NCBI GenBank assembly: GCA_949128115.1
Contig: OX421963.1
Coordinates: 79,603,635 to 79,667,634 of the forward strand
DNA: 64,000 bases
Reading direction: 5' to 3'
Source: Anaspis maculata
Taxonomy: Eukaryota; Arthropoda; Insecta; Coleoptera; Scraptiidae
Positions 957 through 39,776 of this stretch are shown piece after piece. Position numbers and translations under genes: made by a program. The notes below the pieces were generated by a model that saw only the letters and a list, made by a program, of their open reading frames with translations, ran no database searches and was not told the DNA's origin. Numbering within the stretch: position 1 is the stretch's first letter; every line of letters starts with the position of its first letter.

Positions 957-3900
957 TCACTCGTTGAGGGCAAACGATCGCAACTCCAGCATTGATGTGA
1001 CGTACCTGAATACAACCCCACCATGCGATTCCGGAATCCCGTTGATGACACCCGCAAAGTCGATCAGATTCCCAACCCGTGTCAACAAAGGCGGTCTAAT
1101 AAATTTATAAAAAGGGCATTCGAACAGCAGGTGGTTCAAGTTCTCAGGTGTTTGGAGGTTGCAGATTGAGCAATTTATTTCAGTGTCAATTACATAAGAG
1201 GATCCCTTGTGGTAAAACCTAATGATTTTATTGGTTCCCGTGATCCTTAGCTGAGATAATATTCTTATTACGCCGATAGGTAACTTCATGCAGAGATATA
1301 CAGCCGGGTCCCGCGTGACAGTAAAGTAACGATAAAACTGAGTAAACTCGGAGTCACTTAGCCTGTTCAGGTCATCATCGAAAAGTTTATCTCTATATTT
1401 AAGTAGAATCTCATCAGTATAAGTACTCAAGGTGTCAAGTCTCCCCAAACTACACAAATCAGCGAATCCCAGTTCAGAAAGTATGTCTTTGATCTGCGTA
1501 AACCAGTTCAGTCTGGCGCTGTTACCTGGAAAAGATGCGTCGAGCTTTATCAACCGCAGGAGGCACATCTTTGGATAACGACAGTCAGGCAGCAGTAAGA
1601 CCTTGTTCAAGAACCTGAGGGAGTGTTTCAGTACCAAGTGACACAACCTCACACTTCCGGTCTCAAGGCGAAGTAAATAATTTGGTGTATTTCTCGGCAA
1701 CAGTAAGAGACGTTTAAAGAAGTTGAGCTGAATACGCTCGAGTACATCAAAGTAACGCAGGCCCCAAACCGGAATACAATGAATTATCGAATTGATAATT
1801 GTTGAGTTATATAGAGTCATGCGGGACTTCCAGGAATTGAGTTTCGATTTCGACATCAGACTCATCGTAGCTCCCATCGCGATATTTGCCCGCTCAACGG
1901 CCCTCCCCGTATGTTGAAGGAAGAAGGAAGAAGGTGTAAAAGTTATACCTAAGTAGCAATAATCACTCGCAATCTCAAGCAGCTGATTGTCATATACAAA
2001 ATTTCATCATTGCTTCGAGCAAAACCACCCCGCTTGAAGCACATGATTTTGGACTTTTTAATATTTATCTTTAATTTGCTCTCACTCAGGTACCTGTACA
2101 ATAAATCGAGCTTCCTGTTCAAATCTCTCACAGAATCTCCGAGTAGCACCAGGTCGTCAGCAAATAACAACATAAGTAAGTCGCTTGTTCCATCGATATC
2201 AATACCAACGGCACCCTGCGAGCGAAAAAATTCATCAATTTTGGCAAGAAATAAAGAAAAAAGTAAAGGACTCAAAGATTCACCCTGGAGCACACCCGCA
2301 GTGATATCAAATTTTTTGGTATAGGCATTGTCGACTTTTATTTGCACAGTAGCGGTTTCGTACAAATTTTTTATTATTCGGATTATTTTGGAACTAATTC
2401 CTAGACAAAAAAGTCGTCGCCAGAGAATGGAGTGATCAATGGAATCAAACGCCCGCGTTAAGTCAATAAAGGCAGCGTAGACCTTGCGTTTTTTTAATCG
2501 AATATTTATTTGTATGGCGCTAGCAAGCGTAAAAACGTTATCAATGCATCCGCGATTTTTCCGGAACCCGGACTGCGACTCCGGTATCACTTTGATATCA
2601 TCGCACCATGAAGTTAAACGGTGTAGGAGGATTTGGGTGAATATCTTTACCAGGCAGTTTACGAGGGCAATGCCTCTGTAGTTCCGGGGATCATCGCGCA
2701 CACCCTTCTTGAAAAGCATTACAAGTACTACTTCGGACCAGCCTGACGGGCAGATCTCAGATTCCAAAATTTTATTGAACCAGCAAACAATATAAAGTAA
2801 CCAGTTTTGGGGGAGAAACTTCAGAAACTCATACGAGGTCCCATCTTTGCCTGCAGCTTTACCGTTTTTACATTTAGACAGGCTGCTCTTAAGTTCTTCA
2901 AGGGTAAATGGTGAATCCAAAAAAGGGTGCCTAACATCAATAAACATAGTGTTGTCTATTAGGCGGGGCTGAAAAACAGTGGAGTAAAATTCATCCCAAA
3001 TGTGTAACGGCAATGAAGTCGGGGGTGCGCGATTGCGAAATTTTTTAATCGCCATCCAGAAGTCTGCTTGATTTTTGCATGCGCTCAACGTGTCGACCAT
3101 CATTGAATCGTACGCATTCTTCTTCTGCCTTATTATGCGCTTATAGTTTTGTTTAGATTTAATGTACGCATCTCTGGAGCAGGGTTCAAAGCTATTTCTT
3201 TTGCAGGTAGCAAGTGAAGTGTTTAACTCTCTCTTGAGGGCGACGCACTCGAAATCATGCCAAGGCTTACTTGTGTTTAGCTTGTGAGCAGAGCGTACGT
3301 TTTTTGTCATGCCCAGCAATTCGGCGTTATCAGCAATAACTGATAGTAGGTTTTTGTACAAGATTTCTTGTTTGTCAACACAAGAGATCTGCTTAGAGTA
3401 GTACATACGGGACAGGTACTCTTCATATAACTGACAATTCCACCACAGGACTTTGTGTGTAGTGCAATCTGCAACCTCCGCACTCCTAGGGAGTAGAGAC
3501 TTGTGAGGAATACTGAGACTGACACAAGTTGGGAAGTGATCCGACAAAACAGGGCATTGCAAGACTCCGAAATCGCCCACCAAAGCCAAATGAGCACTAG
3601 AACAAAACACCACATCAACCACGCTGCTACCATTTCCCCCGACATAAGTGAATTGAGCAGGGCGGTCACCAGGAGTTCGCCCGTTCAGCAGTATAAACGA
3701 TTTTGAACACATGAATTCAAGCAAATGGCGTCCTCTTGAATTAAACACTTTATCGTTACTTGATCGGGTCTCATGCAAAATAGTGCCCGCCATGGATTCC
3801 ACTGAGACTTCGCCCTGACATCCCAATCTACAGTTTAGATCCCCACCCAGAATGTACATTGCATTTTCGAATTTTTCGGTTATTTCAGTGATTGTTAATT

Positions 3901-4273
3901 GCAAAAGCTCAAGGAAGTCGGAAATGTCCAAAGAAGGCTTGATGTACATAAATATTACAATAATTTCCAATGCGTCCTGCTTTACCTTGAATATTATCCA
4001 CCAGTGAGTGACAGATAGAACAACAACATCATATTTATCATTATACAAAACTAGCAAACCGCCACTAGCCCTTCCCCTATTTTTTTCCTTTAGTGCAGGT
4101 GAACATAAAATTTTACAGTTTAAATAGTTTACTGATGGGTCCTTGACAGCGTAGGTAGCCCAGGTTTCGGAAATACAAAGAAAATCAAAGTCAACGCAGT
4201 TTTTGATCAAATTGTCCATGTTACGAATGCCATTCACATTAGAAAATATTAATTTAAGTCCCGTTCTTCGTTG
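957..4273 (-). pseudogene. LINE-B ORF2: APE endonuclease and reverse transcriptase (one frameshift)
   Basis: ORF2 makes the endonuclease/reverse transcriptase that nicks target DNA and primes cDNA synthesis. The endonuclease spans about the first 230 residues, with SNVNGIRN, CISETW, GGDLNCRLG, SVVDVVF and SDHFP motifs. The reverse transcriptase follows, with AAGKDG, YRGIAL, LTRAFDSI, GVLQGESLSPLLF and the catalytic FADDLVLLG. The C-terminus has a CNLQ-type C-x2-C...H...C knuckle near 1110-1190. A single-base loss in a short T run at about 1999-2005 shifts the frame between 1949-4237 and 957-1990; both segments are otherwise open. The reading frame is the same as ORF1 and starts directly after the ORF1 TAG. 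The first in-frame ATG is about 18 codons later, inside the conserved endonuclease start. Confidence 0.9.
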
Positions 4274-11380: not shown

Positions 11381-13132
11381 CTAGTCTGAAGTGGATGGAC
11401 CTGGAATAGGAGGTGTTGTTTTAGTAGGGCGTTTGATATTGGAAATATGTAGTTTGTGAAATTTACGTCCAGTTTTATTGGACAAAACTCTGGGTTTTAT
11501 GGTTTTCCTAATGGGATCTACACTGATGATTTTTTCTGGTTTAAATCGATTACGAAGTTTCGATCTGAAATTGCTTTTTACGAAAACTTCTTTTGGTAAA
11601 GTGGGAATTTCTTCTCTATTTTCGTTTGCTTTAGAAATGACTTTCTCTTTTTCATTTGAAATATTAGCATTGACGATTTTATACAAAACTGACAATTTGT
11701 TTTTGTGGTTTTGAACGTAGGTAGTTGTTTGCCATTTGTTTTTCTATGTCTAGATCAATGATTTGCTTTGGATCCGGGTGACCGTTTAAAATTTCGAATG
11801 GGGTCATTTTAGTGACTGAATGAGTAGAGTTATTATATATGCTATCAGGGCATATTTGAATTTAGTGTTGATATCATCCCTTTTGAAATCAGGTTGATTA
11901 TTTATCAAGTTGACGTGTTCTAAAATAGTGGAATGAAATCTCTCAATTATTCCGTTACTTTCTGGGTGATGGGGTGAACAAAAATGGACTTTGATTTTGT
12001 GAAGATTTAGGAAATCTTTCACTAGACCGTTGTCAAATTCTGAACAGTTATCGGTGATCAATATTACGGGTACTGAGTGGTGTGAAAAGTATTGCAACAG
12101 ATTTTCGGCAATTTCTGAAGCTTGGGTGCTAGATAGCATGTATGCCTGAGCGTATTTGCTGAAGGCGTCAATGATTGTCAAAAATTTGGAAGTATTATAA
12201 GTTAGAACGTCGATGTGAATAATCTCGAATGGTTTCACCGGCGTGGGAGTAATGTTGTATTTCATTTTCAAGGGTTTTCTGTCATACTTGACGACTTTAC
12301 AGATTTCACATTGATTAATGAAATTTTGAATAGTTTTCATTTGATTTGGCCGATAGTATTTTTTGGATAGTTTTGAATGGGTCTCGGTCATGCCACGATG
12401 ATTGGTTTTACCTTCGTGGTAGCCTCTTACAATGTTTATCTGTTCATCGAGGGTTTCGATGTCTATCAAAGTTTTAGTGCATTTCTTGAATTTGAAGGAA
12501 TCATTGAAATGAAGCTGTACGACATTACTGAATTGTTCGTACATTTTATCGTTTGAAAAGGTGACACTGTAATTGACATTGGGGACAATATATTCTTTTA
12601 GGAATTCTTTGATTTCCTCTTCGTGATCCTTTTCTGAAATTTGGACTGTGTATCTAATTTTTGAATTCTCAAAAAATAATCTGATCACAGTCGGGGGTAA
12701 TGGGTTCATTTTAACTGAAAGGAATTCGATTTGGTTTTTTCCAAAATTTATGGGGTCTTCAGAAATCGGAATTTCAGCGACTGGGTTTTCAAAATTGGAG
12801 TGCACGGTTACGTCGTCAGCGATTATGCCTGGAGTGTCGTCAGGGGGATCGTCAATGGGATCGTCAGGAATATCGGTCCTGTCGTCACCGAGCTCGACAA
12901 TCATTGACTGACTGTCGATTGATGTTTTTTTGTTTAAATCTTCCATAAACTCGAAGAAAGGGTTACTTTCTTCGGTTTCTTCGGGAATCTCATTATTCAA
13001 AATGTAAATAAAGACGTCAATTTTTGCGCCTTTGAAAACTGATATAATCATTGGTAACACTTCTTCCCAATTTAGTCCATCCAAACCGCATCCTAACTTT
13101 GGTATGGCTAAATTTCTGACACTATGTTTCAA
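11381..13132 (-). pseudogene. Integrase region of the errantivirus-like pol, with end of macro domain
   Basis: Integrase inserts the cDNA into the host genome. The minus-strand frame begins with the C-terminal third of a macro domain (IPKLGCGLDGLNWEEV, about 13000-13090). An acidic linker follows. The HHCC zinc finger (TNHRGMTETHSKL ... NQCEICKVV) lies near 12280-12400. The DDE core has HIDVLT, LITDNCSEF and NGIIERFH, giving the first Asp, second Asp and Glu. A basic C-terminal tail ends at 11381. Two compensating frameshifts lie between about 11700 and 11840, so the catalytic core is open but the tail is displaced. A third frameshift in an A run at about 13155-13165 separates it from RNase H. 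Confidence 0.9.
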
Positions 13133-13416
13133 GCAAATTTGTTTTAAAGCAATTAAGAATTTTTTAGGTCTTCGTAAGTGGGCTTGTCATAAAAGTTTTT
13201 CTTTGTTATTAAATAGTAGATGTATCTGTCCAATAATTTCAGGAAAGCCACATCTCCTATTGTTTTATGCTGACTGACAAGTGTTAGGACGTTGCCGAAT
13301 TTTTCTTTGAAAGTCCTGGCTATGCCAGCGTTCATGATTAAGTCTTCTGAGACACAGTGCGCCAGAGAGAAGTCCTCTGGGGCTTCAAATAAATCGGCAT
13401 TCAGAATGTGGACATT
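13006..13416 (-). other. Macro domain embedded in errantivirus-like pol, between RNase H and integrase
   Basis: Translated on the minus strand, this part of pol reads as a nearly complete macro domain. It contains NADLF, then [17 protein letters not shown] (the ADP-ribose loop region), a core with [20 protein letters not shown], and IPKLGCGLDGLNW with a closing beta strand DVFIYIL. The pattern is closest to OARD1/Poa1-type macro domains, which bind or hydrolyse ADP-ribose derivatives. One frameshift near 13160 splits it. Related insect gypsy pol proteins seem to carry a similar block (recollection, not checked). The role in the element is unknown. Confidence 0.75.
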
Positions 13417-13885
13417 GCCGAATTCTGTTTCCGTCAACAGATTTAGGTTGGGAACCCGCGAAAGGGCATCAGCGTTGGAATTCATTTTCCCTTTTTTATA
13501 GACTACTTCGTAGTCGTATTCCTCCAGCTTCAGTCGCCAACGCACTAATTTTGAATAAGGCTCTTTGAGTGACATTATCCACTGAAGGGGCTTGTGGTCG
13601 CTGATGACCTTAAATTTTCGACCAAATAAGTAATGCCTGAACATTTTGGCATAGACTAGTCCATAGACTACGGCAAGTAGTTTTTTTTCTATGGTTGAAT
13701 AATTGATTTCGTGGGCATTAAGGGTTCTTGATGCATAATGCAATTGGTAGGTCCGACCCTATTGGACCTTGGGATAAAACTGCGCCTATAGCGTAATTGC
13801 TTGCATCACAGGAAAGTGAGAATGGGGGATTCAAAATTTGGGTATTGGAGCAATGGTTCATTTGTCAAAAGTGTTTTACATAGGT
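13416..13885 (-). pseudogene. RNase H region of errantivirus-like pol, frameshifted
   Basis: RNase H removes the RNA strand during reverse transcription. Visible blocks are [34 protein letters not shown] and the tether end [14 protein letters not shown] that closes RNase H in Ty3/gypsy pol. The first block (Asp-containing CDASNYAIGAVL) lies near 13780-13810 in another frame, so one or two indels lie between 13740 and 13885. The open part covers 13416-13743. Confidence 0.88.
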
Positions 13886-15252
13886 TAAAACATTTGGAGT
13901 AATCCTCGTCCTTGACGTTGATTTCTGTCTTTCTTTAATCGTGACGTAAGTGGTTTTGTAAGTTTTGCAACGCCCTTGATAAATTTCCGGTAATATCCAA
14001 CTAGTCCCAAAAATCCCTTTAGTTGCTTTTTGGTTGTTGGAATTGGAAAGTTTTCAATTGCTGAATTTTTTTCTGGATTTGGTTCAATACCTTGTGGAGT
14101 GACGACATGTCCTAGGTATTGGACCTCTTTTTTGAGAAACTCTGATTTGTCCAGCTGGATTTTCAAATGGGCCCTTCTGAGCCTTTCGAAGACTTCCCGG
14201 AGTCTGACAATATGCTCTGGGAGTGAAGTACTGAATATTATTATGTCGTCCAGATAAACAAAGCAGGTTTCATTCTGAATACCTCTTAAAATGTTGTCCA
14301 TAGCGCGCTGGAACGTTGTGGGCGCGTTTTTTAACCCGAAGGGCATGCGTCTAAATTGGTAATGGCCATTGTCCACGCTAAAAGCAGTTTTTTTGACGTC
14401 GCTAGGGTCCATTTCGAGCTGGTGAAATCCACTAGCCAGATCGATACATGAAAAATATTGACTTCGGCCCAATTTGTCCAATATATCAGAAATATTTGGC
14501 AAAGGGTACCGATCATCTACAGTATTTTCATTCAATTTCCTGTAGTCTATGACTAAACGCCATTTTCGTTTGTTTGTTGCATCCAATTTTTTTGGAACGA
14601 CCCAAATTGGTGCATTGAAGGGTGAATTTGAATGTTCAATAATTCCTTGGTCAATCATGTCTTAAATTTGTTTATTAACTTCCTCCTTATGCACGTAAGG
14701 GTAGCGATAACTCTTCGTGTATATGGGTTTATCGTCTTTCAGTTTTATTGTATGCTTGGCGGAATTTGTGAAAGTCAATTTCTGATCTGGGAAATGAAAA
14801 ATGTCTTTATATTCCACTAAGAGTTTGGTTATCTCTCTTTTCTCTTCTTCATTCATGTGTTCCGTTCTGACTTTGGACAAGTCGAAGCTAAACTTCCCGC
14901 AATCGAAGCTGTTTAGATTTTCGAAATCATCGGTTTCAGATTCCGAGACCTCAATGGCTTCTTCAAAAGCTTGTGATTGGTTGAAAGAAATTTCGCTTTC
15001 TGTTGCATTCAAAACGGAACAGATGGTTTCGTAATTATTAATTTTAACCAAGCTCTCAGGAATTTCTAGATTTGAAAATTTTTGGTAGGGCAAAATTCCA
15101 ATACCATTGGAGATATCCTTTATTTTGAGTTCAACAATTTTCTGTGTACGTGGTTCAATCGTATGAAAATTATTACACTCGTTCACAATATTTTCGTGAT
15201 GCAATTTAATTTTTGTTTTGGGAGTGAGTGAGCTTCCCTTTGCTCGCGTCAA
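13885..15252 (-). pseudogene. Reverse transcriptase of errantivirus-like pol (in-frame stop)
   Basis: RT copies element RNA into DNA. Motifs in order: [65 protein letters not shown], the catalytic [11 protein letters not shown], then VQYLGHVVT and [12 protein letters not shown]. The YLDD box is intact. An in-frame TAA at about 14659-14661 lies just before [11 protein letters not shown]; the two sides are in the same frame. The part upstream of the stop (14662-15252) is the protease-RT connection with KPIYTKSYRYPY. Frameshifts follow downstream of 13885. Confidence 0.93.
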
Positions 15253-24614: not shown

Positions 24615-26300
24615 CTACAACTTTGATAATACCAGTTGGTGTTGGTTTTCCAGGGCTGGCTTGCAACACCGAAGGGAACCGCAAATGGTTTGGAGGTCTT
24701 GACAAGCTAAAACAAGCAAAACCAGGGAATCTACAGCCCTTTCTGTGCAGCAGTCATGTAAGACGCCCTCTGGAGATGAGAAAGGAACCAACGAACTCAG
24801 GGGCAAGCTTGGCAGAAACGTACTGCTCAGCATTGGACTGCACGAAGTTTCGGTGCCATACCCGGTGACCCACCGAGAACTGGATCGGCCTCCGTCGAAG
24901 GTCATACCGAGTCTTGCTTCAATCATGAGCCCGCCGCATTTTGAGGCGAACTTTCCGGTAAATATGCTGGAAATGTTCCACCCGAGGTTCAGGAGCCTCC
25001 TGGTTGTCCCCAATCCGCTTTTTCAGTTCATAGTCCCCACCGTGCATTCTTGGTGGGAGCAAACGAACAAACCCGGTCAGAGAGTCTTGAATAGGCCCGT
25101 TTTCAATCCGCCATGAAGGGAAGTCAGCAGGTCGATCTCGAACCCTGGCCAGCAAGTCGACATACCACAGGGATCGGTGATTTCTGCCGGTTCAAAGAGA
25201 ATCGACCAAACTTCAGCCCCCTCCACTTTCGGAGCTACCCCTACGGAGATCCAGAACCTTGTTTTCCTTGCGGCGGCGTTGTATTACAAAGAACTCGTAC
25301 TGCTGTAAGCGCGCACTCCAACGGGCCAGCCGTCTGTTTGGATCGTGTAATCGATGCAGCCACTGGAGCGTAAAGTGGTCAGTCACCACGATGAACTTGC
25401 TGGCTCCGACATACGGGCGGAACCGCTCGATTGACCAAACCACTCCCAGACACTCCTTCTCCGTAGTACTGAATTTTCTCTCGCTGCCCGTCAGTGAGAG
25501 ACTTATGTAGCTGATGACGTGCTCGATTCCCCCCTTTCTTGTGTGAGGGCTGACCCGGGTCCGTAGTCCGACGTGTCCGTTTAGATTTGAAAGGATAGAG
25601 ACAGGTCTGGGCACACCACCACTGGAGCTGTCATCAAGTGCTGTTCCAGGGCCGCGAAGGCCTGGTCGCAAGCGGAAGTCCATTCAAATCGCACGTTTTC
25701 AGGACACCTCACTCAGGACACGCAAGTGATGGTCAAAGTCCTGTTTCACGATGATGATGTTATCGAGATAAACAAAAAACGTACGGTTCCAGATGTACTT
25801 CGAGGACCCGATCAATGAGGCGCTGCCAGGTGGCGGGGCACTGTACAGGCCGAATGGCATGCGGGCACACTGGAACAGGCCTCGAGTAGGAACAGTAAAC
25901 ACCGTTATCGCCTTCGATCGGTCTTCCACCGGCACTTGCCAGTAGACCGACTTGATGTCCAGAGACGTGAGGTAGCGAGCGCGTCCGAGCTGATCTATGA
26001 TGTTGAAGATGTAGGGAAGCGAATAAGCGTCCCTCTCCGTGACGGCATTTACCTTCCGGTAATCAACGCAGAAATGATAGTTGTGACCCTTCTTGATCAA
26101 GACGATTGGCGACGCCAATGTCGAAGTTGACAGCTCTCCCAAAAGGTCGATACCCATTCTCATGCGCCGCAGAAAATCAACTCTCAAAATCAGACAACTT
26201 GACAGTCTAGGCATAGCTAACAGCTCGAATACTTTTTCCAACTCTCCGACACGAATTGACACTCGCAAGACCCCCACCGTTCCGGCCAGTGGCTACACGG
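24615..26300 (-). pseudogene. Decayed Ty3/gypsy pol (protease end, RT, RNase H, integrase tail)
   Basis: On the minus strand, 25699-26277 encodes the end of a protease (DFLRRMRMGIDL) joined by a deletion to RT blocks: VDYRKVNAVT, YLTSLDIKSVYWQVPV and RMPFGLYSAP. The catalytic box reads YLDN instead of YLDD. RNase H blocks follow at 25213-25683 (ERKFSTTEKECLGVVWSIERFRPY and VTDHFTLQWL). Positions 24745-25155 hold an integrase C-terminal tail in pieces (KVRLKMRRAHD, then an RPIQFSVGHRVW-like block in another frame). No LTRs are visible. It is a fragmented, dead copy from a different gypsy lineage than the element at 9525-18328. Confidence 0.85.
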
Positions 26301-30808: not shown

Positions 30809-31663
30809 TTGATTTAAAACAATCAATTTATTATTAGACATGTTTCTATCAAGTTAGCTTTGCAACCAATCAGGAGGATTTAACATTGACAATTCAGTGC
30901 AGAAACAAACTGTCAAGTGCGACTTTTCTGTCACGCAAAAAAATCAAATAACCAAAATTTATGATAAAATGCCTGACTCCCATCTTGAATCACCTCCATC
31001 AGAGCTTCGAAAAAGCAGCTGTAGCAGCCTCGACGCACTTACTGCCAGAAAAAAGTCAGGAGCGCTACAAGAAGACTTTCAAAGCCCATAGATGCCAGGC
31101 TAGCAGCAAGAATACGCTGCAATGAACCGAAAATGGAACTTATTTCAATGAGCTTTCCCAATATAAAAAGCGTCCACTTGGGTGCAATAATTCCATCAAC
31201 ATAAAAAATAAAATAACAACAAATCTCTAAATGTTCCAAGCTTCACTTTGGATCTTTCTGAAAAAGAAAAACACAGGGTATGAATCAAAATAATTGAATG
31301 TGTTCACCCGGACGCAGTTCGAGAATTTTTCGGATAGATGACGATGATGCGTGGGTCAAATTCGTTCTTAAAATCCTGAGAATTGGCAAGTGCAACATGA
31401 ACTTGTAGGAATGTAGGCTACAACAAGATGCGAACATTTACCTATACGGTCCAGGTTTAGATATTGGTGAATATCTAACGTATTTTACATTCCCACTTAG
31501 GCACCTCCGCAGCTTTTGCCAATAATTTCAGGGTCACTCAATACTAATTAAAAGGTGATTTAAATTGAGTTTTCACGGAAAATACACCATGCTGCTCATG
31601 GTTTCTGACGAGCCCGGGGTTTCAAATCTTATCAGACCTGTCGCTCATGAGAATCAATAACAT
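30809..31663. other. Intron sequence, nothing recognised
   Basis: AT-rich non-coding sequence between two mobile elements. Short ORFs only. Confidence 0.45.
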
Positions 31664-31806
31664 TGTGGCGGCTCTTATATGGGCATGTGGCGAAGGAACT
31701 GTTGTCTCCTCGGTAGCTCAGTGGTAGAGTACCCATCCGGCAAATGGAAGACACGGGTTCGATTTCCGCTCAGGGCAGAGACTTTTTCTCCGCCACATCA
31801 CACCAT
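31664..31806 (+). mobile_element. Solo LTR of a TRIM family whose LTR carries a tRNA-like unit
   Basis: 143 bp from TGTGGCGGC to CACCAT, flanked by a 5-bp target duplication AACAT (31659-31663 and 31807-31811). It matches both LTRs of the TRIM at 37224-37723. It contains a tRNA-like A box (31714-31729), B box GGTTCGATTTC (31756-31766) and a T5 run (31783-31787). A single LTR with its own target duplication is the usual product of recombination between two LTRs. Confidence 0.85.
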
Positions 31807-31811
31807 AACAT

Positions 31812-36098: not shown

Positions 36099-37218
36099 CA
36101 GGGTGTTTCGGTGACCTTGGATAATAAAGTGCTCAACAAAATAAGTGTCGCAACAGAAATTTTCCCCCAAATTTGAGTCAACATAACTTTTGATTGTCAC
36201 AGACGATTTCAATTCGGTTTTCACTGCTCGATTGCCTAATCTTTTGGCTATCTACCATGTTCAAAGATCACCTGAAAAGCTGCACATAAAGTTTCTACAG
36301 GGTGGTGAATAAAGCAGATCATGATTGTTGAAATTTTAATGAACCCTCGTTTGAGCTGAAACTTTTTTTGTCAACAACCGATAACAAAATAATGGAGAAT
36401 GATGACTTACCTCGGAACGGTTTTCGAATTTCCCGGATTAGAAGTGAAATAGCCAAGATACGATTTTTTTGCTTGGAATGATGCTTTTCATCTCTTCTCC
36501 TTCATGAAAAATCAACGGATTCTCGATGTAAGAGGATATCTCTCAGCAGGCTTGCTCATTAGACGATTCTAAGCAATTTGTTGTCTAGCGCACCCCCTAT
36601 TTTGTCTTTTGGGGCTGAAATTGGGTATATTTTTTTATGAATTCGCCACCAATTTCACAACTTAGGCTTGTTTGATATCAATTCTTTTGATTAAGGCTCG
36701 CAAAACAAGACTATCTTGATAAAAACAGTCTTCTGTCTGTCTGACTGTCTGTCAGTCTGTCTGTAACATGTTACGATATGCTCCAATTTCACAACCTAGG
36801 CTTGTTTGATATGAATTCTTTTGATTAAGGCCCGCTGAACAAGATTATCTTGATAAGAACAGTCTTCTGTCTGTCTGTCTGTCTGACTGTAATATGTTAT
36901 ATGCATGTAATATGCTCCAATTTCACAACCCAGGCTTGTTTGATATCAATTCTTTTGATTAAGACTCGCTGAACAAAATTATTTCGATAAAAACAGTCTG
37001 CTGTCTGTCTGTCTGTCTGTTTGTCTGTAATATGTTACGATATGCTCCAATTTTACAACCTAGGCTTGTTTGGTATCAATTATTTTGATTAAGGCTCGCT
37101 GAACAAGCTCATCTTGATAAGAACAGTCTTCTGTCTGTCTGTCTGTAACATGTTAAGATATGCTCCAATTGTACAACCTAGTGAACCTTGGCTGGTTTGA
37201 TATCAGTTCATTTGATCA

Positions 37219-37223
37219 AGGCT
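37219..37223. repeat. 5-bp target duplication of the TRIM, left (AGGCT)
   Basis: AGGCT also lies at 37724-37728. The tandem unit reads through as AAGGCTC when the TRIM is removed, which confirms the boundary. Confidence 0.82.
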
Positions 37224-37364
37224 TGTGGCGTCACACGTGGGCATGTGACGGAGAGACTGTTGTCTCCTTGATAGCTTAGTGGTAGAGTACCCATCCGGCA
37301 AATGGAAGACGCGGGTTCGAGTCCCGCTTAGGGCAGACACTTTTTCTCCGTTACATAGCGCCAT
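37224..37364 (+). repeat. Left LTR of the TRIM, with tRNA-like unit
   Basis: Starts TGTGGCGTC and ends GCGCCAT. A box TAGCTTAGTGGTAGAG at 37272-37287, B box GGTTCGAGTCC at 37314-37324 within a perfect GCGGG/CCCGC T-stem, and T5 at 37341-37345. Confidence 0.85.
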
Positions 37365-37367
37365 AAA

Positions 37368-37381
37368 TGGTGACCCCGAAC
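37368..37381 (+). other. Primer-binding site of the TRIM, tRNA-Trp type
   Basis: TGGTGACCCCGA starts 3 nt after the left LTR and is complementary to the 12 nt at the 3' end of metazoan tRNA-Trp (TCGGGGTCA plus CCA). Confidence 0.82.
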
Positions 37382-37561
37382 AACAATAACACGTACGCAA
37401 CACGCTACTTGAATAAACAAGTAACAGCGAACAATTGAATAGCACCGCCACTTCTCTTCCTACGTCCACCCACGTCCTATCCGTCGCCCTAGCTGGGGGT
37501 ACCGAACAACGGTTTATAAGAACGGTGAACACGGATGACATACGAGACGAACGACGTCTCT

Positions 37562-37571
37562 GGAGGGGGAG
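37562..37571 (+). other. Polypurine tract of the TRIM
   Basis: GGAGGGGGAG lies 3 nt upstream of the right LTR, where plus-strand DNA synthesis would be primed. Confidence 0.78.
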
Positions 37572-37574
37572 TAC

Positions 37575-37723
37575 TGTGGCGGCTCTCATGCATGTGGGCA
37601 TGTGACGAAGGGACTGTTGTCTCCCCCGATAGCTTAGTGGTTAGAGTATCCATCCGGCAAATGGAAGACGCAGGTTCGAATCCCGCTCAGGGCAGACACT
37701 TTTTCTCCGTCACATCGCGCCAT
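37575..37723 (+). repeat. Right LTR of the TRIM, with tRNA-like unit
   Basis: 149 bp, TGTGGCGGCTC to GCGCCAT. A box TAGCTTAGTGGTTAGAG at 37630-37646, B box GGTTCGAATCC at 37673-37683, T5 at 37700-37704. The anticodon-like stem TCCAT/ATGGA is perfect here; the loop reads CCGGCAA and lacks U33. Confidence 0.85.
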
Positions 37724-38085
37724 AGGCTCACTGCACAAGATTATCTTAGTAAAAATGGTCTTTTGTCTGTCTGTCTGTCTGTCTGTAATCATGTTACGAT
37801 AACTTCCGAACCAGTACATCGAATTCAACTGAAATTTAGTATAGACATGATTCATGAAGGTTAAAATTCAAATTGATCCAAAGGCCCCACAATATCTTGA
37901 AAGGTCTTAAGAGACCGCACCATCCACCAGTTCCTTTTATTTTGCTCTCGCAAGATCAATTTTGAATACATGAACATTTCTTCTTATTTCTATTGAATTC
38001 AACACTTGGTATTTTGTCTCCAATTGTCGATCAAGGTAGGTACATATGTAGTTGTTCTGGACTTGAAAAAATTAAGTGAAAACAG

Positions 38086-38708
38086 AAGAAGAGCGGCATG
38101 CGCTCTGCTGAAGCCGCAGCATCGTGCTACTAGCCTAAGATGGGCACAAAACCATATTAGCACTGGGGAATAGCAGGATGGAGTAGGTGCTTGTTTCCAG
38201 ATGAAAGTAAGTTCAATTTGTTTAGGTCGGATGGACGGGTTCTGGTATGGCGACAGAGGAACGAAAGACTTCTGGAAGAAGACATGGAGGCAAGGGTAGT
38301 TTTTGGACGTGGAGGAGTGACTGTTTGGGGAGAAATGAGGACTGAAAGAATAAGTGATTTGGTGATACTGAGAGGAGAGAGTATGAATGGTGAAAGATAC
38401 AGGGATTTGTGTATAAAGGATATTGTGGTCCCCTTTGCTCAAAATTTTGGTGACAATTTCATGTTGGTCGACGACAACGTCCGACCTCATCGGGCTAGAA
38501 TTCTCAACGAATTTTTAGGGGATCACAATATTGAAAGAATGGATTGGCTACCCTTGTCTCCAGATATGAATCCTATCGAGCATGTATGGAGTAAGATAAA
38601 GTTGAAATTGAAAGAAAACAAGGACAATCGGACAATTTGAATGACTTAGCGATTGCAGTTCAGGAAGAAAGGGAGGCTATTCCTCAGAATTTTCTGCGGG
38701 ATAGCTAA
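38086..38708 (+). pseudogene. Tc1-like (DD34E) transposase remnant
   Basis: Tc1/mariner transposases cut and paste elements at TA. The main open part (38191-38640) starts at the first catalytic block FPDESKF, then VWRQRNER and GGVTVWGE. The second catalytic Asp is in VDDNVRPHRA, followed by LPLSPDMNPIEHVWS with the catalytic Glu. Thirty-four residues separate the second Asp and the Glu, so it is DD34E. Upstream, RAACALLKPQHRATSLRWAQNH matches the N-terminal side of the family but is in another frame with a stop at 38158-38160. A second frameshift near 38630 leads to a short tail ending at 38706-38708. The N-terminal HTH domain is missing. Inactive. Confidence 0.88.
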
Positions 38709-38796
38709 TTACGAGATGGTGCGCCCTCTAGTGCACCGACTTGAGCTAAAATCTCATCAACTTACTCGAAAATTCAAATTATGCCCGCATATTTAA

Positions 38797-38880
38797 AGGA
38801 GGAGGAAGAAGGAAGGACAAGGAGAGGAAGAGGACAAGAAGGAATAAACTTATTTATTATTATTATTATTATTAATAATA
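38797..38880 (+). repeat. Purine-rich tract followed by (TTA)n microsatellite
   Basis: About 50 nt of G/A-only-like sequence runs into TTATTATTATTATTATTA. Located just after the transposase remnant. Confidence 0.8.
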
Positions 38881-38884
38881 TGTA

Positions 38885-39086
38885 CACTGACCAAGCTTTG
38901 GAAACACTTTTGAAAACTGTCAATTTTTGAAGTCAAATTGCACACGTATTTGAATGTGATATGACAAAAAAAAGTGGAGTTTCACAGTTCCAAAGATGTC
39001 TTCTACAAATTTTGAGCGCATGTCACCTTCTCAAATCCTTTTCTTGACAAGCTTGACAAGTGTTTCCAAACTTTCGATCGATACTG
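38885..39086. mobile_element. 202-bp mariner-like MITE, TA target duplication
   Basis: Left end CACTGACCAAGCTTTGGAAACACTT and the inverted right end (CAGTATCGATCGAAAGTTTGG...) share CTTTGGAAACACTT-type text. TA lies at 38883-38884 and 39087-39088. The terminal match is imperfect, so this is a moderate call. Confidence 0.6.
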
Positions 39087-39776
39087 TACCTTCACATTCA
39101 CCAAATTTCAGTTAAATTCGATGAACCGTTCGGGAGTTGTAGAAACAGATGACTGACAGACAGACAGAAGAATGTTTTAACCAAGATAATATTGTTCAGC
39201 GAAGCTCAATCAAAAGAATTGATATCAAACAAGCCTAAGTTGTGAAATTGGTGGCGAATTCATAAAAAAATATACCCAATTTCAGCCCCAAAAGACAAAA
39301 TAGGGGGTGTGCTAGACAACAAATTGCTTAGAATCGTCTAATGAGCAAGCCTGCTGAGAGATATCCTCTCACATTGAGAGTCCGTTGATTTTTCATGAAG
39401 GAGAAGAAATGAAGAGCATCATTCCCAGGAAAAAAATCGTATCTTGGCTATTTCACTTCTAATCTGAGAAATTCGAAAACCGTTCCGAGGTAAGTCATCA
39501 TTCTTCATTATTTTGTTATCGGTTGTTGACAAATAAATTTTTAGCTCAAACGGGGGTTCATTAAAATTTCAGCAATTATGAACTGCTTTATTTACCACCC
39601 TGTAGAAACTTTATGTGCAGCTTCTCAGGTGATCTTTGAACATGGTGAATAGCCAAAAAATTAGGCAATCGACCAGTGAAAACCGAACTGAAATCGTCCG
39701 TGACAATCAAAAGTTATGTTGAATCAAATTTGGGGCAAAATTTCGGTTGCGACACTTATTTTGTTGAGCACTTTAC

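Follow-up and report, generated by a model that had tools for sequence, protein, structure and literature searches.

The window, by which we mean the whole 64-kb stretch of DNA that was analysed, contains at 37224-37724 an LTR element of 501 bp that encodes no proteins for mobilisation. This non-coding LTR retrotransposon of 0.5 kb, each LTR of which contains a tRNA-derived unit of A and B boxes, is called the window TRIM in the following. All of its features lie on the plus strand. The left LTR (37224-37365, 142 bp) begins with TGTGGCG and ends with GCGCCATA, the right LTR (37575-37724) comprises 150 bp, and the two are identical at 130 or 131 of 142 aligned bases, according to which of two alignments is used. 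Their ends were set from genome copies, those of the left LTR by the flanks of these copies; the right LTR exceeds by 4-6 bp the commonest lengths of 144 and 146 bp, which account for 49 of 64 complete LTRs. Between the LTRs lies an interior of 209 bp (37366-37574) with mechanical open reading frames only, and the sole frame of at least 130 aa that overlaps the element is a mechanical antisense one of 132 aa. The PBS TGGTGACCCCGA (12 nt, 37368-37379), which we take to be of the tRNA-Trp type, begins 2 nt past the left LTR, and its exact sequence occurs only this once in the window. At the other end of the interior, the polypurine tract GGAGGGGGAG (37562-37571) ends 3 nt ahead of the right LTR. 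The element is flanked on both sides by the target duplication GGCT (37220-37223 and 37725-37728).

Much of this architecture had been described in an earlier note on this DNA. The two similar LTRs, the 12-nt PBS after the left one, the polypurine tract with its 3-nt gap to the right LTR and the start at 37224 were found again, but the LTRs had been given as 141 and 149 bp, the gap before the PBS as 3 nt and the end of the element as 37723. The target duplication of 5 bp proposed at that time had to be abandoned: it is the 4-bp GGCT, and the supposed fifth base is the last base of the LTR. Since the LTR is thus one base longer, the spacer before the PBS is 2 nt rather than 3 nt, and since the LTRs of the family terminate in ...GCCATA, the window TRIM ends at 37724.

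A tRNA-like unit is located at 37265-37335 in the left LTR and at 37623-37694 in the right LTR. Folding against a tRNA covariance model had been suggested as a check, and Rfam does report one tRNA match per LTR, with 51.1 and 52.6 bits, respectively. ARAGORN reads a tRNA-Ala with the anticodon GGC in both LTRs. The consensus sequences of the internal Pol III promoter are TRGYNNARNNG for the A box and GGTTCGANNCC for the B box. Read against these, the left LTR contains the A box TAGCTTAGTGG (37272-37282) and the B box GGTTCGAGTCC (37314-37324), and the right LTR the same A box TAGCTTAGTGG (37630-37640) and the B box GGTTCGAATCC (37673-37683). Each unit is followed by five T residues as a candidate Pol III terminator (37341-37345 and 37700-37704), so that the A box, B box and TTTTT claimed for each LTR were confirmed by reading both of them. 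Within the window, Rfam at gathering scores detected tRNA only, and no 5S rRNA.

The family is represented a second time in the window, by a solo LTR at 31664-31807 on the plus strand that lies within a duplication ACAT (31660-31663 and 31808-31811). It contains an A box (31714-31724), a B box with one mismatch (31756-31766) and T5 (31783-31787), and its tRNA-like unit yields an Rfam tRNA match of 34.6 bits (31707-31777). The window TRIM is housed in a DNA transposon of 3.65 kb (36125-39775) with a DDE_3 transposase fragment and 625-nt terminal inverted repeats, 93% complementary, which is probably IS630/Tc1-like. The tandem repeat that had been taken as the empty site of the TRIM is indeed an interrupted repeat, but it belongs to the terminal region of this transposon. 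Near one end of the transposon (L043), GTCT-rich tandem units of about 130 bp were seen. At the C9 locus, which is 95.7% identical over 3.36 kb, this TRIM is present at an identical insertion point, and four other loci (L009, L010, L012 and L015) have one common TRIM insertion in a second repeat, with pieces 96.6-98.8% identical. These two cases indicate that TRIM copies have also spread inside other repeats. Further transposable elements were noted on the minus strand of the window: a broken LTR element at 11804-14658 with open reading frames for an integrase core (11804-13132) and a reverse transcriptase (13885-14658), a second such element in fragments at 25213-26277 with RNase H-like and reverse transcriptase domains, and a non-LTR element at 1949-4237 with endonuclease and reverse transcriptase. 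For the latter, the matches with an organism in their name come from Cotesia and are 36-43% identical.

Contig C50 of the 758-Mb assembly of the host genome (16,310 bp, covered here over its first 6,000 bp) carries mitochondrial genes. Its COX1 shows 97% identity to Anaspis sp. (Scraptiidae, Tenebrionoidea), against 96% for an entry labelled just Cucujiformia, 93% for an oedemerid entry and 92% for Tenebrio molitor, so that the host is a beetle, probably Anaspis or a close relative. The assembly was searched with the LTR and with the interior. The LTR search gave 43 matches, from 40 scored of 1388 first-look candidates, and the interior search 42 matches, from 40 scored of 550; neither 1388 nor 550 is to be read as a copy count. 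Sample A, comprising the LTR search and the window solo LTR with overlaps merged, contains 41 units, 32 of them with both LTR ends, and sample B contains 33 units from 33 interior loci at places outside sample A, 26 of them with both LTR ends. Units without both LTR ends, 9 of the 41 in sample A and 7 of the 33 in sample B, were excluded from the duplication counts, and L001 and L002 from the family analyses. The complete units of sample A comprise 19 copies of the form LTR-interior-LTR, 11 lone LTRs and 2 tandem copies. In sample A, 27 of 32 complete copies stand between exact 4-bp duplications, and in sample B 21 of 26, together 48 of 58; counted by distinct right flank, it is 24 of 29 in sample A and 20 of 25 in sample B, and one of the 29 flanks of sample A (L010) duplicates the insertion of L009. 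The fifth base also matches in 12 of the 48 copies (7 of 27 and 5 of 21), which is the chance level, so that the duplication is 4 bp long and the LTR terminus is TA. A duplication of 5 bp, favoured by the two insertions in the window, is ruled out by the flanks of these genome copies. Ten copies, five per sample, show no 4-bp duplication. Among those of sample A are L019, to which we return below, L008, which has the end of a purine tract directly before it and adjoins L020, a copy without right LTR (by eye), and L039, which sits beside an inverted copy.

Such copies also bear on the question of whether a SINE or a family of tRNA pseudogenes is present here, paired as LTRs by chance. SINEs have no LTR pair, their 3' ends are variable or tailed, and their insertion by LINE machinery leaves long duplications. 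The tRNA-like unit has the size of a SINE and lone LTR copies do exist, as this explanation would predict. However, complete copies end uniformly in TGTGGC and GCCATA, 4-bp duplications accompany 9 of 11 complete lone LTRs as well as 37 of 43 copies of the form LTR-interior-LTR, and PBS, polypurine tract and tandem arrays are present. The earlier note had named mostly lone copies with variable ends and no duplications as the sign of a SINE; what the genome contains, by contrast, are complete elements, tandem arrays and solo LTRs, all with fixed ends, and the duplications just counted. A SINE origin is thus extremely improbable, and the description as a TRIM with tRNA-like units in its LTRs is borne out by the genome copies.

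Among 31 interiors longer than 150 nt, the PBS is exact in 20, a variant in 6 and replaced by a different start in 5, and the last 22 nt, which include the polypurine tract, are identical in 26. The two LTRs of a copy differ at between 0 of 146 sites (L037, L078) and 12 of 142 or 143 sites (window TRIM, L009, L015). Tandem arrays are exemplified by L041 (C1:71714064-71715632), which has five LTRs and four interiors within a single GGAC duplication, and by L042, where an LTR followed by two interior-LTR units lies within a single CCAG duplication. A lone LTR behind a doubled purine tract (L032, C5:23145874-23146016) may represent the 3' terminus of a related element other than the TRIM. Three arbitrary 10-kb stretches of the genome contained no TRIM copies. 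The LTR pattern had no match in a viral contig collection, and two matches in a genome contig collection were rejected as chance matches of 20 nt in bacterial contigs.

The tRNA-like unit recurs throughout the family. Rfam tRNA matches were obtained in all 20 genome loci submitted (37 matches in total), and ARAGORN found a tRNA in 26 of 27 loci submitted, mostly Ala(GGC). Box counts and conservation refer to 111 distinct complete LTRs only, out of 124 LTRs in all. Here, the exact A box (TRGYNNARNNG) is present in 108, the exact B box (GGTTCGANNCC) in 92, a run of at least four T residues in 108 and all three together in 89. At 15 of 72 positions of the unit the major letter falls below 0.95, and none of these is among the 16 fixed positions of the A and B boxes (P 0.014, a nominal value since the copies are related, with 7 fixed A-box positions on the 111 LTRs); at a threshold of 0.90 there are 10 variable positions, again none in the fixed set (P 0.066, likewise nominal). 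A version with 55 LTRs, in which the A-box set held one position too many (8), gave P values of 0.040, 0.012 and 0.055 at 0.90, 0.95 and 0.97. The variable positions lie in the acceptor stem, the D loop, the anticodon and T stems, at the last position and, within the boxes, at N positions, to which the base that varies most in the B box also belongs. The third pair of the T stem is A-T in 68, G-C in 36, A-C in 5, G-T in 1 and gapped in 1 of the 111 LTRs, a variation that may go back to one or a few inherited changes. RNA folding of whole LTRs gave z values of -4.2, -0.85 and -0.82 in three copies and thus no consistent whole-LTR structure. An inverted repeat around the tRNA unit is little informative: at one of its pairs, among 55 LTRs, a single one has G-C, 31 have A-T and 23 have G-T.

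The unit might still be a relic that is carried along, with the TRIM being transcribed by Pol II from a weak LTR promoter, like other TRIMs. The T5 in the left LTR, which would hinder a full Pol III transcript, is in line with this idea, and the conservation test of the A and B boxes is a weak one. However, A box, B box and T-run are kept in the large numbers of LTRs given above, the 15 variable positions fall outside the fixed box positions, and no TATA box was noticed by eye upstream of the tRNA unit in either of the window LTRs. We regard a relic as unlikely. Pol III transcription of the window TRIM is plausible, to judge from its sequence.

Concerning the origin of the unit, a genome search for the tRNA family, in which 63 of 82,911 first-look candidates were scored, produced 55 matches, and 45 of the matches were compared. 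Among these, the real tRNA closest to the left and solo units in local alignment is Ala(TGC), with 71-73% identity over 58-59 nt. By global score, the next after LTR copies is Lys for the left unit, Thr for the right unit and Ala for the solo unit, again among the matches compared, which represent the best-scoring isotypes and do not include Asp, Gly, Val and Trp. Four of the 45 (L119, L123, L124 and L125) match the TRIM unit itself at 60-68 of 71-72 positions and reach tRNA scores of 64.8, 60.6, 48.2 and 47.7 bits, respectively. L119 and L123, of each of which about 92 nt are known, probably lie within LTRs. The best of these copies, with 64.8 bits, surpasses two tRNA-Ala(CGC) matches with 63.0 bits. 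Annotators should be aware that copies of the TRIM unit can reach scores of this kind. ARAGORN reads Ala(GGC) in them, and an annotation as tRNA genes is possible.

For the larger element that might copy the TRIM, the genome was searched with a 17-nt PBS, presumably typical of elements using tRNA-Trp. This sequence occurs 57 times, and the reversed control not at all. Twenty of the 57 loci were examined, 17 with their flanks and 3 chosen by the junction pattern described below; upstream of the PBS, 7 of the 17 share one sequence, 6 share another and 4 are single. At one of these loci, L019, a tRNA-bearing LTR is followed by AA, the PBS and a coding interior. This LTR has intact A and B boxes, but the longest T-run near its end is only 3, which counts against the preferred reading given below. 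In the interior, a single open frame, probably left by an internal deletion, encodes both DUF7041 and an integrase core; the integrase match ends about 1.2 kb past the PBS. DUF7041 is probably a gag part and the partner of the Gypsy type, although no reverse transcriptase was seen in the partner sequence read. The interior of L019 is also carried by L148 (97.1% identity over 722 nt), where the sequence upstream, compared by BLAST over 640 nt, did not match the TRIM LTR and, over 160 nt, gave no Rfam match. It contains ATAAAAG (by eye) and AATAAA, as Pol II LTRs do, and was taken as the LTR of the partner; the contrast to the window LTRs is a further point against Pol II transcription of the TRIM with its tRNA unit as a relic.

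L148 and L019 have the 12-nt PBS of the TRIM in common, placed before the coding interior. This PBS is the only significant match between TRIM and partner, a 14-nt match including the 2-nt spacer of the TRIM itself, and beyond the PBS no significant similarity connects the TRIM interior with the partner, which was compared over its first 1.2 kb. At the junction in L019, the 2-nt spacer is the AA of the TRIM, and the sequence after the common PBS is that of the partner. The junction pattern, with up to 2 mismatches, was found at 10 places in the genome, including L019 and L148, and at none in the control. Five of the 10 were examined, namely L019, L148 and, as 191-nt pieces, L150, L151 and L152, and in the latter three a tRNA LTR stands directly ahead of the PBS. 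From the PBS start, 35 nt were read in each of these three. Over this length L150 is identical to L019, and 18 of the 35 nt lie beyond the 17-nt PBS. L151 agrees with the interior of the window TRIM at 28 of 33 positions including the PBS. Its PBS is complete with 17 nt, and the 12 nt in the window copy may accordingly be a shortened match. L152, likewise with all 17 nt of the PBS, agrees at 26 of 34 positions, and its interior may differ in kind from that of the window TRIM.

The joining of a tRNA LTR to a coding element at the PBS, in L019 and L150, suggests that both kinds of element have shared particles, and it makes the coding element a candidate mobiliser. The evidence consists of left junctions, read for about 1.2 kb past the PBS in L019 and for 18 nt in L150. 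In a comparison with the 124 LTRs less L019's own, the LTR of L019 is nearest to one of L016 (98%) and that of L150 to one of L087 (99%), and the two chimeric LTRs agree with each other at 138 of 146 positions. The closest relative of each is thus found among the TRIM LTRs and not in the other chimera, which favours two separate joinings. A different explanation would be that a coding Gypsy-type lineage of the beetle itself owns tRNA-bearing LTRs and that the TRIM arose from this lineage by deletion. The two loci at which a tRNA LTR precedes the partner interior would be expected in this case. However, the same interior also stands behind the unrelated sequence of L148, the nearest relatives of both chimeric LTRs are TRIM LTRs, and the TRIM interior lacks any significant match to the beginning of the partner. 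In addition, Pol III rarely makes RNA of several kb. Such a lineage is therefore rather improbable.

The joints might also have arisen at the DNA level, by recombination or gene conversion between the LTR of a resident TRIM and a copy of the partner. The tandem arrays show that DNA recombination occurs among TRIM LTRs, and the joints known are left ones only. On the other side, a PBS of 12 nt as the sole significant match offers little for homologous exchange, and both joints are located exactly at the PBS, which is the handover point of strong-stop DNA. We consider recombination at the DNA level possible, but doubtful.

Our preferred reading, to which we assign a probability of roughly 0.8, is that of a Helenus-type TRIM of a tenebrionoid beetle which is transcribed by Pol III and copied by a larger LTR element, with chimeras arising from strong-stop DNA. 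Pol III would start in the left LTR, some 12-20 nt ahead of the A box. The T5 in this LTR should stop the enzyme, and a genome-length RNA therefore needs read-through: Pol III would sometimes pass the first T5 and stop at the T5 of the right LTR. The resulting RNA would be about 0.45 kb long, with an R region of some 95 nt common to its two ends. Termination at the first T5 would yield a short tRNA-like RNA as well. The TRIM RNA would then be copied in the particles of a larger LTR element, probably of the Gypsy type, that uses the same tRNA primer, and an integrase with 4-bp staggers would insert the product. Plus-strand strong-stop DNA, which contains the LTR and the PBS, anneals to the PBS copy with which the minus strand ends. 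Within one particle, strong-stop DNA of the TRIM could pair with the minus strand of the partner, and the product would consist of the TRIM LTR, the TRIM spacer AA, the common PBS and the partner interior, like L019. The chimeras look like plus-strand strong-stop transfers of this kind, from one well-read and one short left junction. A further step, in which TRIM RNA made by Pol III and Gypsy-type RNA made by Pol II are co-packaged and repeatedly recombine at the PBS, and coding hybrids with tRNA-promoter LTRs spread, seems improbable on present evidence. If true, it would offer a coding retrotransposon a way to replace a Pol II promoter by one of the Pol III type.

The tRNA-like LTR had been regarded in the earlier note as a new parallel invention. 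However, TRIMs with tRNA-derived LTRs, those of insects included, are already published and named Helenus (TRIMp3; Kojima 2024, PMC10886601). With Helenus, the beetle TRIM has in common a tRNA-derived sequence with A and B boxes inside both LTRs, a PBS, a polypurine tract, the lack of coding capacity and a length below 1000 bp. Animal Helenus elements produce 4-bp duplications (PMC10886601), as does the beetle TRIM in 48 of 58 complete copies, and hymenopteran members include some with tRNA-Trp primers (PMC10886601). The arthropod hosts in Table 1 of that paper are Hymenoptera only (PMC10886601), so that the beetle TRIM would be a member in another insect order, a likeness judged by the described features. 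Among listed papers from 2023 on that use the name Helenus, Kojima 2024 and a meeting report are the only ones to concern transposons, judged by title. No beetle Helenus was found among the papers listed, again judged by title. Pol III transcription of Helenus was expected in the naming paper (PMC10886601). For animal Helenus, Kojima 2024 infers Gypsy elements as mobilisers from PBS similarity, which was seen with Gypsy elements only, and names no direct partner in the accessible text; a long LTR stretch common to such TRIMs and an autonomous counterpart is deemed unlikely there (PMC10886601). The chimeric loci with tRNA LTRs in the beetle have no counterpart in the same text.

Other TRIMs share single features. 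Cassandra likewise has an internal promoter of the Pol III type in each LTR, PBS, polypurine tract and tandem copies, but its LTRs contain 5S rRNA rather than tRNA, its hosts are plants and its PBS is of the methionine type (PMC10853983, PMC10886601); according to Kojima 2024, nothing indicates its mobiliser (PMC10886601). PbTRIM of the harvester ant is an insect TRIM with LTRs of similar size, 4-bp duplications and solo LTRs, but it differs by a TATA box in U3 and a Leu-type PBS, and no tRNA unit is described in the accessible text (PMC3532108). Solo and tandem copies of a TRIM in animals are also known from biv-TRIM of bivalves, which differs in its host and in having no unambiguous PBS, as far as the accessible text describes it (PMC6934838). 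In comparison with these systems, the young copies, the identical LTR pairs and the joints of TRIM LTR and coding element at the PBS make the question of the mobiliser testable in the beetle. Our results suggest that the novelty lies in a Helenus member in another insect order, together with a lead to its mobiliser.
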